A stretch of DNA of 64,000 nucleotides from Agelas oroides. Lineage: Eukaryota; Porifera; Demospongiae; Agelasida; Agelasidae. Below are positions 18,213 through 64,000 of this stretch, piece after piece (positions within the stretch are counted from its first letter, which is position 1; each line of letters begins with the position of its first letter). The notes beneath the pieces are model-generated. The model did no database searches. It had not been told where the DNA came from and saw nothing but the letters and a program-made list of their open reading frames with translations. The DNA is taken from NCBI GenBank assembly GCA_949130485.1, contig OX422184.1, positions 23,232,917-23,296,916 of the forward strand. The letters run 5' to 3'. Both the position numbers and the translations under genes were made by a program.

Positions 18213-19692
18213 TTACTTTGTGCACACAACACACACGACTTCCTTCTCTGCGTCGTATGGGGGACAGGGAATTCCATAACCACACCTTACTTCTGTGTGG
18301 AAGAAGAGAGCTCCATCTGTGTTTGGTATACTGTCAGGAACTGACTCTGGAGATATGTCCACACATTCAAACATTGTACGTTGAGCATTATTGTGGTTTG
18401 CCATGAGATATCCATAATACTCCCTGGTCCAGGATGATGGGCAGGTAGTTTTTGCAGGAATCATTACAACAGTTTCTTGTGTAGAAGTGTAGCAAACTGC
18501 ACATGGGACATTGTGGTCATTTACTGCATTAAGTGGTCCATTCTCATCAGCCTGAGTTAATCCAGTCTCATACTCAGCCCCATACAGGAGTGCTCTTCCA
18601 CCCTGTGACCCAGCCGTGTAGGTGGAGTTCTCTGGCTGCTCTGGTAGACAGAGGTAGTTTGCTCCACCTCCACTCTGACTATACCAACTTCCGGCTGCCC
18701 TTCCAGCATACAGTAGCTCTGCTCCAGAAGTGTTAGAACACATGGTCTTGCCCCACCTGGTGTACACCACACCACCACCAGAGGAACCTTGGGCTCCTAG
18801 TGTGTGTGTGTGTGTGTGTGTGTGTGTGTGTGTATGTGTGTGTGTGTGTGTGTGTGTGTGTGTGTGTGTGTGTGTGTGTGTGTGTGTGTGTGTGTGTGTG
18901 TGTGACAGAGAGAGGTGCATAATATGTGTGGCAGAAACACTCAATAATCAAGAGCTTGGCAGGCCCAGGTACAATGTATAGCCATACAAAAGTGTGCTGT
19001 TGCGAGTTAAAATACACAACGGATTTTATTTCATGCATGCAGACCACCAGTTTGTTTCCTGGATAATGGTACCTGGACAATGTTTATCATAATAGGCACT
19101 ACTATACACCAAGCTCCTTTTCCCATCGATATCATAGTAAAGTGGCATGAAATATGTCTTCGCTGGATACCTCAGGTTTCAATGCTGTATATGAATCACC
19201 TACTAGGCAGTTCTCTGGGCTGAACTTTAACAGTACGTACCTTGTGGTCCAGGTGGTCCCTGCGAGCCAGGGATACCCCTCTCCCCTGGTAATCCTGGGG
19301 CCCCATCCCGACCATCTCGTCCTGAAACTCCATCCCGACCATCTCTCCCTTGAGGTCCTTGAACAGTGTATATGCTGGATAGGGAACAACCTTCATTGGT
19401 AGAATTTTGATTTGAGGACTGTACACTTCTCTCCTCCCTCGGTAGAGTGCCAGCTGGGTGAAGGGAAGGTATATATATACTCAACCATACTACTTCATTC
19501 AAATGCTGTAGCTATTTGAGAATAAGTGTATTCTGCACAAGATCTAATGTTATCTGCAGAAATTTTGTACAATAGCACAATGGAAGCTGTGAAACACGTA
19601 GTTGTTCAGAGCATACCAGAAGCTGTATTGAGGTACAAGGCAGCAAGAAATGCCACAGTTAGCATGAGGTAGCGATCCATCTTGGTAGACAT
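18213..19692 (-). CDS. Short-chain collagen gene B1, 290 aa
   Basis: Exons, in transcript order: 19617-19692 (signal peptide), 19241-19453 (N-terminal stretch and 13 Gly-X-Y triplets), 18213-18796 (last helix residues and cysteine-rich C-terminal domain). All junctions are GT/AG and all are phase 1. The product should be secreted, trimerise through the collagen helix and join extracellular matrix, as known for sponge short-chain collagens. It is the most diverged B copy: helix end GAQGSS instead of GPSGSS, and a three-residue longer loop (TQADENGPLNAVND). Its second intron carries by far the longest TG/CA tract (18801-18903) next to the splice acceptor. It lies outside the near-identical array and serves as a natural outgroup. 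Confidence 0.88.
18801..18903. repeat. (TG)n microsatellite at the intron 2 acceptor of B1
   Basis: An almost pure TG run with one TA interruption near 18833. On the coding strand it is a CA tract directly before CACTAG, the 3' splice site. The equivalent tract is ~25-50 bp in the other copies. Confidence 0.95.
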
Positions 19693-19754
19693 CTCCTTCA
19701 AAGCTTCCAGATCCTGATCGGTGGTACTGTAAATCAGCTTATGTTTCTAGTGCG

Positions 19755-19792
19755 ATTGGTTCACTTATATAGTAGCTGGTATTGGTTCACTT
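19755..19792 (-). promoter_or_regulatory. Promoter of B1: TATA box with flanking direct repeats
   Basis: On the minus strand TATATAAG lies at 19764-19771, 72 bp upstream of the ATG. Two copies of AAGTGAACCAAT (19755-19766, 19781-19792), each with a CCAAT core, lie at and just upstream of it. The same layout occurs before every B gene. Confidence 0.6.
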
Positions 19793-20335
19793 ATCACAGG
19801 AAGTAACTTTGTCAAATTCCAGGTGCAATCAGCAGTGGCATTGAGAACAGCTATTACCATTAACTTGGTCAAATTTCCGATATACCAGCTGTCATTTCAA
19901 TAACCCACCTCCATGGGGTTCCTTTTACTGGGTGATTCCTAGAACTGGGACCAGCTGTTAATATAGTAGTTTGATCATATTGGTAGGGTTGTGGCCAACA
20001 TGAGTGATAAGGCTGCTGGTATGATTCTTCTTACTATAACTGAAGCCTTGTCATAACCCACCCACATAGTGTTATTATGGTAGTTCAATCAAATGTGTAT
20101 GATTACTCCAAGCATGAGTCATAAGGCCAGTATGATTCCTCTTACAAGTGCTAACTGGTCATTTCAAGGAAACACCCACATGGTTCTAGAACTTGAAGTA
20201 GCTGCTACTATAGTTGGTCAAATTGGTATTATTAAGGTCAGCACAAGCGATTCGGCCGGTACAGTTTTGGCTTTGGCTGTACTGCCTGTTTGCAGGCAGA
20301 TCTTAAATGCTCTTTCTCTCAAGAAAAAACCTTTT
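19793..20335. repeat. Pre-unit spacer upstream of B1
   Basis: Degenerate ~114-bp satellite monomers (ATAACCCACC, GATTCCTAGAACTGGGACCA). A plus-strand frame (20093-20437, 114 codons) is open here and in the sister spacers but is not convincing as a gene. No other gene is seen. Confidence 0.65.
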
Positions 20336-61245: not shown

Positions 61246-62691
61246 TTACTTTGTGCACACAGCACACACGACTTCCTTCTCTGCATCGTATGGAGGACAG
61301 GGGATTCCATAACCACACCTTACTTCTGTGTGGTAGAATCGAGCTCCATCTGTGTTTGCTGTACTGTCAGGAACTGACTCTGGAGATATGTCCACACATT
61401 CAAACATTGTACGAGGATGACCATGATAGTTTGCCATGAGATATCCATAGTATTCTCGGGTCCAGGATGATGGGCAGGTAAGTCGTGCAGGAATCATCAC
61501 AACAGTTTCTCGTGTTGAAGTATAGCAGACTGCACATGGGACATTATGGTCATGGAAAGAGCGAAGTGGACCATTATCATTCCCTGTTGTCTGATATTCA
61601 GCCCCGTACAGCAATGCTCTTCCACCCTGTGACCCAGCCGTGTAAGTAGAGTTCTCTGGTTGCTCTGGTAGACAGAGGTAGTTTGCTCCACCTCCACTCT
61701 CGGTATACCAACTTCCAGCTGCCCTTCCAACATACAGTAGCTCTGCTCCAGAAGTGTTAGAACACGTGGTCTTGCCCCACCTGGTGTACACCACACCACC
61801 ACCAGAGGAACCTGAGGGTCCTAGTGTGTGTGTGTGTGTGTGTGTGTGTGTGTGTGTGTGTGTGTTTGTGTGATAGAGAGAGAGAGGTGTATAATATGGC
61901 TGCATGGGGGAAGGAGTCAATAATTAAGAGCTTGGCATTCCTAGGTACAATATATAGCCATGTAGACAAATTATTGTGTATAAAAAACTGCTGTTGTGAG
62001 GTAAATAGACAACAGCTTATTTCATGCATGCAGACCACCAGTTTGTTTCCTGGATAATGGTACCTGGACAATGTTTATCATAATAGGCACTACTATACAC
62101 CAAGCTCCTTTTCCCATCGATATCATAGTAAAGTGGCATGAAATATGTCTTCTCTGGATACCTCAGGTTTCAATGCTGTATATGAATCACCTACTAGGCA
62201 GTTCTCTGGGCTGAACTTTAACAGTACGTACCTTGTGGTCCAGGTGGTCCCTGTGAGCCAGGGATACCCCTCTCCCCTGGTAATCCTGGGGCCCCATCCC
62301 GACCATCTCGTCCTGAAACTCCATCCCGACCATCTCTCCCTTGAGGTCCTTGAACAGTGTATATGCTGGATAGGGAACAACCTTCATTGGTAGCATTTTG
62401 ATTTGAGGACTGCACACTTCTCTCCTCCCTTGGTAGAGTGCCAGCTGGATGAAGCAAAGGTATATATACTCAACCATACTACTTCATTCAAATGCTGTAG
62501 CTGTTTGAGAATAAGTGTATTCTGCACAAGAACTAATGCTATCTGGAGAAATTTTGTACGCTAGCACAATGGAAGCTGTGAAACACACAGTTATTCACCC
62601 AAAAGTAGAGCATACCAGAAGCTGTATTGAGATACAAGGCAGCAAGAAATGCCACAGTTAGCATGAGGTAGCGATCCATCTTGGTAGACAT
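61246..62691 (-). CDS. Short-chain collagen gene B8, 287 aa
   Basis: Exons: 62616-62691, 62232-62444, 61246-61820; frame and splice sites intact. The N-terminal stretch has NAT instead of NST, so the glycosylation sequon is kept. The CA tract (61823-61870) is interrupted by a TTTG. The C-terminal domain is identical in protein to B2. Confidence 0.9.
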
Positions 62692-63451
62692 CTCCTTCAA
62701 AGTTTCCAGATCCTGATCGGTGGTACTGTAAATCAGCTTATGTTTCTAGTGCGATTGGTTCACTTATATAGTAGCTGGTATTGGTTCACTTATCACAGGA
62801 AGTGACTTTGTCAAATTCCAGGTGCAATCAGCAGTAGTATTGAGAACAGCTATTACCATTAACTTGGTCAAATTTCCGATATGCCAGCTGTCATTTCAAT
62901 AACCCACCTCCATGGGGTTCCTTTTACTGGGTGATTCCTAGAACTGGGACTAGCTGTTATTATAGTAGTTTGATCACATTGGTATGGTTGCGGCCAACAT
63001 GTGCGATAAGGCTGCAGGCATGATTCCTCCTACTACAAGTGAAGCCTTGTCATAACCCACCAACATAATGTTATTATGGTAGTTTGATCACATTGGTATG
63101 GTTGTGGCCAACATGAGCGATAAGGCTGCAGGTATGATTCCTCCTACTATAAGTGAAGCCTTGTCATAACCCACCAACATAGTGTTATTATGGTAGTTCA
63201 ATCAAATGTGCATGATTACTGCAAGCATGAGCAATAAGGCCAGTATGATTCCTCTTACAAGTGCGGACTGGTCATTTCAAGGATACACCCAGTGCATGGT
63301 TCTAGAACTTGAAGTAGCTGCTACTATAGTTGGTCAAGTTGGTATTATTAAGGTCAGCACAAGCGATTTGGCCGGTACAGTTTTGGCTTTGGCTGTACTG
63401 CCTGTTTGCAGGCAGATCTTAAATGCTCTTTCTCTCAAGAAAAAACCTTTT

Positions 63452-64000
63452 GTGTACCCCATTAGTGGGAGGGGGTGGCAAGATAATGTTGCATCTACAT
63501 GCACACTTTGTGTGAGAAGATTCCCTTACTGTTGCACTCACTCAAATAGCTAGGTTCAAATGGCTAGTCCTGGAGTGGCAGATACTCAAATTTTATTACC
63601 ATTTCAATACGAGGGCATCATACATTGATCAGATTAAGGTTGCCAATATATAACAATAAGATAGCACATGCAGTTGAGAATGAAGTGAAAGAAATATTTG
63701 TTTCCACATCTGGTTTTGCACACTTTTGCATGCACATGTGTACTTAGCTTTTCTCCCAGAATTGAACCACACCACTCAAATGCTGGTGCCAGGCCTGCAG
63801 GTTCAGAATAGAGTGGTAGGTACTGCAATTTTACTGCCCATCAAATTTTCGCCACGAGGCAATTATCAGAATGAGGCGGCCCACATTAGAATAAGGTTGT
63901 AATGCAGTGTTTATAAATATATGAAATGATGTACTGTAATTCATGTTGCAAATTTATAATGATCATGGTTAAGTCAAACTGAAATCAAAACTACAATCAT
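63452..64000. repeat. Tandem unit U8, cut by the window edge
   Basis: The first 549 bp of a further unit, matching U2 and U3 closely. It shows that the array continues to the right. No gene in this part. Confidence 0.9.

Follow-up and report, generated by a model that had tools for sequence, protein, structure and literature searches.

The window, the whole 64,000-nucleotide stretch of the Agelas oroides genome analyzed here (C2:23232917-23296916, in an assembly of 259.3 Mb and 141 contigs), carries eight three-exon genes on the minus strand, B1 to B8, seven of which sit in a ~6.1-kb tandem unit. Self-comparison showed that this unit recurs across positions 18213 to 64000 at ~94-99% identity, bearing out the original prediction of a ~6.1-kb unit repeated seven times in tandem. 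The array runs from 24253 to 64000 and comprises the units B2 (24253-30391), B3 (30392-37042), B4 (37043-43068), B5 (43069-49210), B6 (49211-55237), B7 (55238-61245), and B8 (61246-65907), the last of which stops 1.9 kb past the window. The array had also been described as open to the right; it does run off the window, but it ends at C2:23298823 (window coordinate ~65907) and is thus not widely open. Four more units, belonging to a further array, lie to the left at C2:23212519-23234373, and the right end of the last of them (L4) reaches into the window at positions 1 to 1457. A retrotransposon (1897-4983) separates this first array from a spacer segment, T, in the block that includes the window (block 1). 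In this assembly, the row of near-identical genes for small collagens, predicted to be secreted, is real.

The B2 gene (24253-25682, minus strand) consists of exons of 76, 117, and 575 nt (25682-25607, 25339-25223, and 24827-24253) with GT-AG introns, and encodes 255 aa. Exon 1 holds the start codon and a leader with an N-terminus that, judged by eye, is hydrophobic; exon 2 encodes 13 Gly-X-Y triplets; exon 3 encodes the remaining triplets, followed by a C-terminal domain of 184 aa that is rich in cysteine. The other array genes, all on the minus strand, are B3 (30392-31821; exons 31821-31746, 31478-31362, and 30966-30392), B4 (37043-38474; exons 38474-38399, 38131-38015, and 37617-37043), B5 (43069-44500; exons 44500-44425, 44157-44041, and 43643-43069), B6 (49211-50661; exons 50661-50586, 50318-50202, and 49785-49211), B7 (55238-56662; exons 56662-56587, 56318-56202, and 55812-55238), and B8 (61246-62691; exons 62691-62616, 62348-62232, and 61820-61246). 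Start codon, splice sites, frame, and stop are kept in all eight copies of the window, as had been predicted, and of the 20 copies inspected across the wider region, 19 are intact, the broken one (R6) carrying a ~0.45-kb insertion in exon 3. Compared with B2, the C-terminal domain is identical in B3, B6, and B8, one residue different in B4 and B5, and seven residues different in B7. Five of the six other array copies thus match B2 or differ by a single residue, in agreement with the earlier claim of five such copies. The single residue changes of B3 and B6 fall in the leader. B1 (18213-19692, minus strand; exons 19692-19617, 19357-19241, and 18796-18213; 259 codons including the stop) is an edge copy: relative to the array copies, divergence is 5-18% in its exon 3 and as high as 15% in its intron 2, whereas much of the remaining unit is array-like.

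Next to B1 lies a paralogous short-chain collagen gene, A, whose last exon occupies 14261-14932 on the minus strand, with further Gly-X-Y coding stretches upstream at ~15.0 and 15.7 kb. Truncated relics of an A-type NC1 domain occur on the same strand within the units (23260-23436, 29400-29576, 36050-36226, 42076-42252, 48218-48394, 54234-54410, and 60253-60429). The truncated domain was found in 17 of the 20 units examined, and the other three end short of its place. Each relic sits at the far end of its unit, adjoining the neighboring B gene, an arrangement that repeats the order of the intact A and B1, and the spacers are ~83% alike by self-comparison. T, A, and B1 together form a module that follows the first array at 23.240-23.251 Mb. 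The module recurs at 23.433-23.443 Mb with 50 substitutions (0.29%) and 22 gaps across an alignment of 17,305 sites that takes in the start of the next array. A third module at 23.483-23.493 Mb is 97.5% identical, lacks an insertion, and contains a frameshifted B1-like copy; T alone is found once more at 23.299 Mb (95%). Since the units contain a truncated A-type domain and keep the A/B order of the module, the 6.1-kb unit probably goes back to a pair of A and B genes whose A member was shortened before amplification.

A second block, at 23.39-23.48 Mb, starts ~92 kb beyond the right end of the window's array. We searched the genome for the C-terminal domain and scored the best 150 of 355 first-look candidates; all 150 matched, and counts based on these best candidates are lower bounds. 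Among the 150, at least 73 related domains lie in a ~0.9-Mb cluster (C2:22.68-23.58 Mb), of which 57 are near full length without stops and 23 are at least 96% identical to B2. These 23 comprise ten copies in block 1 (including three to the left of the window), 12 in the second block (including the broken R6, and with five known from the domain search table alone), and a stray copy at 23.527 Mb. The other 77 scored matches include 36 on C17 and 16 on C11, and pairs of equal score at fixed spacing were seen on C17 and C3 too.

The B protein is presumably a short-chain collagen of the spongin type (named spongins include short-chain collagen C4), a group reportedly treated in Exposito et al. 1991 and Aouacheria et al. 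2006. The Pfam Collagen family (PF01391) matches B2 residues 25-71 with 28.5 bits (cut-off 27.2), and ten cysteines are invariant in the C-terminal domain in both a 4-domain and a 7-domain alignment. By eye, no HSQ motif was seen in the printed domain sequences. The C4 domain (PF01413) was found by Pfam neither in B2 nor in the seven aligned domains, nor in the genome (three candidates scored), in a search that gave no match in 14 control genomes either; fibrillar COLFI matches are present in the genome. Pfam gave no NC1-family match for the domain, and a PDB search with the domain profile returned no match. A single-sequence PDB match to Cas5c (E = 1.7) is at chance level. Named spongins did not appear among the matches of any search. 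AlphaFold models of the NC1-like domain, based on four window sequences, reached a mean pLDDT of 34.8, too poor for a fold search.

According to passages of an eLife 2017 paper, the C-terminal domain of spongin has seven cysteines in common with collagen IV, three that are particular to it, and no HSQ, and demosponges possess spongin while collagen IV is not detectable (PMC5395295). The B protein would share with the spongin short-chain collagens of those passages a short Gly-X-Y region, an NC1-like domain, the lack of HSQ, and ten cysteines, which equal seven plus three in number, as a match of counts rather than of columns aligned to a named spongin (PMC5395295). It differs in its 13 triplets in exon 2 and in its near-identical tandem array. 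In architecture and cysteine count, the B protein fits the spongin-type short-chain collagens; the literature and the cysteine count likewise point to a possible homology of its domain to collagen IV. The family, the fibrillar-collagen matches, and the missing C4 match together make a demosponge likely. In Amphimedon, several collagens, presumably of this short-chain type, show raised levels in adults (PMC3447736).

Units are mosaics of one another. The nearest neighbor of a unit usually switches between 600-bp windows, the exceptions being B1-R8 and B7-R5, which stay paired for >4 kb. Among the 15 copies of the main set, 12 units are complete; they hold 131 informative sites, with a local incompatibility of 343 against a permutation mean of 505 (0 of 1000 permutations as low), and the Hudson-Kaplan minimum for these units, which assumes no recurrent mutation, is Rm = 33 recombination events. 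Recombination between units, a mark of concertedly evolving tandem arrays, was thus found. In the leftmost copies (L1, B1, R1, and R8), exon 3 is 3-18% diverged and much of the rest is array-like; B1 and R8 reach up to 15% over the intron 2 window and 4-7% in some other windows. Edge copies are hence diverged mainly in exon 3, at the outer end of the array, and such partly homogenized copies fit unequal crossing-over and conversion. The proposed tandem amplification with homogenization by exchange or conversion consequently draws support from neighbor switching, the permutation test, Rm, and the edge copies. Its description as recent holds as far as low divergence goes (units differ by ~1.6% in most of their non-coding sequence, and two 17-kb modules by 0.29%), a measure to which no clock is attached. 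Some variant sites of L4 and B7 match L1 and A, which is only suggestive of conversion donors. As a single donor, none of the paralogues tested in the fetched region matched every variant site; the best fits were 6 of 10 sites for B7, 6 of 8 for L4, and 8 of 12 or 8 of 11 for the variant relic.

We examined selection in the 15-copy set, which leaves out the edge copies L1, B1, R1, and R8 and the broken R6. Mean pairwise divergence was 0.5-0.8% for exons, against 1.7% for introns, 1.3-1.7% for most spacers, and 2.9% for the 500 bp upstream. For the relic it was 2.8%, a value mostly due to one clustered variant common to three units. The 27 variable coding sites comprise 16 amino-acid changing and 11 synonymous ones (pN = 0.58%, pS = 1.23%), and the ratio of 0.47 indicates weak constraint. 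At the non-coding rate, an expectation inflated by clustered variant tracts and applied to sites that are not independent in exchanging copies, 34.2 amino-acid changing sites were expected against the 16 observed (P = 4 × 10−4) and 13.1 synonymous sites against 11 (P = 0.34). No stops were seen where 2.3 were expected (P = 0.10); at such divergence, intact frames by themselves say little. None of 61 indel events was coding, against 7.4 expected (P = 6 × 10−4) or 4.25 when the expectation was taken from introns and near upstream sequence (P = 0.014). A direct test of the 16:11 ratio at the 27 coding sites was not significant (binomial P = 0.10). The edge pair L1-R1 shows seven amino-acid and no synonymous differences, and B1-R8 one and three, respectively; exon 3 length varies among edge copies by multiples of three, outside the indel count. 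Because coding indels are absent and amino-acid changes are about half of those expected, constraint on the B protein is likely. Synonymous sites diverge about as much as non-coding ones, so exchange accounts for most of the similarity among the copies. Taken together, DNA exchange between copies appears to maintain their similarity, and selection to preserve the protein.

Here, we show at the level of the assembled sequence an array of intact genes built of mosaic units. We consider it about 75% probable that a minimal spongin-type short-chain collagen gene is truly arrayed in tandem in this genome, homogenized by exchange under purifying selection, with copies that should jointly raise matrix output. 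An ancestral A-B gene pair would have lost A by truncation, and unequal crossing-over would have multiplied what was left, a 6.1-kb unit with the A relic and an intact B; larger blocks with arrays and A-B1 modules would have been duplicated as well. Exchange and conversion between units would maintain their likeness, and purifying selection would weed out damage to frame and amino acids. Each expressed copy may then supply a secreted chain that trimerizes via its C-terminal domain and joins the extracellular matrix, so that the copies together would lift the output of one matrix protein. That a higher copy number is beneficial through dosage is a plausible step, which we hold tentatively.

Neutral amplification is a possible account that deserves real weight. 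It supposes that a repeat-prone region copies itself by unequal exchange and that the sameness of the units reflects recency and exchange, with no dosage benefit. The closeness of synonymous to non-coding divergence and the P value of 0.10 in the direct test agree with it, as do the A relic, amplified together with the unit without an intact frame for the domain, and the equal-score pairs on C17 and C3. The missing coding indels and the halved number of amino-acid changes nonetheless imply that the copies matter, which speaks for constraint and not for a benefit of number. We note that neutral amplification overlaps with our preferred explanation, denying only its dosage-benefit step.

An assembly artefact, in which the second block or some units represent the other haplotype placed in tandem, seems improbable to us. 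It could account for the 17.3-kb stretch that differs by only 0.29% between blocks and for the near-identity of B7 and R5 over >4 kb. However, no N run occurs in the stretches read (23.190-23.450 Mb and 23.483-23.493 Mb, on either side of 23.450-23.483 Mb), the left flanks of the blocks differ by 2.1% overall and by 6% in the first kb, and the right flanks share 95% identity over 5.3 kb. Moreover, 23.350-23.360 Mb had no block 2 counterpart among the best 39 of 6197 candidates, which repeats dominate, and there are three A-B1 modules, one of them 2.5% diverged and without an insertion. Repeats within a block, which differ by ~1-4% and have private insertions, would not be accounted for either. 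In block 2, T directly adjoins the array, whereas in block 1 the retrotransposon parts them. Since the stretches read are free of gaps, divergence between blocks is uneven (0.3% to 6%), and the retrotransposon parts the array from T in block 1 only, simple haplotype duplication is unlikely, and some contribution at the 0.29% module is possible. That the array supplies variant NC1 domains by conversion, in the way that some immune or recognition families do, would suit the edge copies (domains 12-14% unlike B2; L1 and R1 differing by amino-acid changes only) and the L4 and B7 sites that match L1 and A, but it is very improbable given that, counting B2 itself, 13 of the 23 copies most similar to it score 100% over the domain, that amino-acid change in the array is below rather than above neutral, and that no tested donor matched a whole tract.

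The homogenized, constrained array that we favor is a striking but ordinary case of tandem amplification already known in sponges. In passages of the Ephydatia muelleri genome paper (PMC7385117), gene clusters have identical exon-intron structure, unequal crossing-over is inferred, whole clusters are replicated, and coding parts are more alike than introns and spacers, all as here; in contrast, the families named in those passages include integrins, E3 ligases, mGABA receptors, and aquaporins, and short-chain collagens are not named there. In two corals, likewise, nearly a third of the predicted genes are tandem duplicates, whereas the amplified families are mostly immunity-related and belong to another phylum (PMC10236652). 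Among the titles and abstract openings listed from the open-licence literature, we found no report of a near-identical spongin tandem array. The locus offers one well-assembled array where exchange and selection can be told apart, with synonymous sites close to neutral, no coding indels, fewer amino-acid changes than expected, and a relic gene in the same units as separable signals. It suggests that a simple structural sponge protein can be supplied by tens of near-identical genes, and it would carry greater weight if copy number proved variable and linked to skeleton growth. A bolder version, which we regard as unlikely, would see a matrix-protein array in the style of histone genes or rDNA, i.e., a nested repeat, in which 6.1-kb units sit within larger blocks of array plus A-B1, with copy number varying between individuals, tuning skeletal collagen output, and with a variable upstream 114-bp repeat adding control per copy.

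AATAAA or ATTAAA occurs within 350 bp past the stop in one of five B copies checked. Upstream, the element TATATAAG (25754-25761, minus strand, at B2) lies ~75 bp before the start codon in all 20 copies examined. Upstream of B2, the 114-bp minisatellite spans 25946-26249 with a TRF copy number of 2.7, and its repeat motif has one or two matches in each of 20 units.

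Short repeats lie both upstream of the B genes, the three-exon short-chain collagen genes carried by the ~6.1-kb tandem units, and next to one of their splice acceptors. Upstream of the genes sits a 114-bp minisatellite (25946-26249 and the equivalent place in other units), whose repeat motif matched once or twice in each of 20 units and which could alter their promoters. Directly 5' of exon 3 in each B gene (e.g., 24831-24865), the splice acceptor is preceded by a CA repeat. Among 19 copies, the longest uninterrupted stretch of this repeat ranges between 9 and 38 units.

We also noticed several mobile-element-like sequences. 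A ~1.02-kb repeat (16917-17936 and 6419-7447) has inverted ends (GGTGGCACGG/CCGTGCCACC) and is flanked by TTAA, a combination shared with piggyBac-type elements. Among the matches listed in a genome search, dozens of loci shared 97-99% identity with this repeat, and some copies formed head-to-tail runs (e.g., eight matches within C109:1-9039, on another contig). The third module, a copy of the T-A-B1 segment at 23.483-23.493 Mb, lacks the repeat and has an empty site there. In block 1, a non-LTR retrotransposon (1897-4983) adjoins the first array; it is absent from the corresponding place in block 2. It has an open frame of ~1030 aa, in which reverse transcriptase and endonuclease domains scored above the cut-off and a PHD finger match below it. 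Finally, a MITE-like insertion of ~0.5 kb with inverted ends (34555-35065) occurs in the B3 unit and in none of the other units examined.

Beyond this contig, the scored matches of the genome search with the C-terminal domain include further family members as equal-score pairs at C17:3253608-3272591 and C3:3435655-3447527. These pairs, which on C17 show a fixed spacing of ~14.5 kb, suggest that the family has undergone additional recent local duplications.
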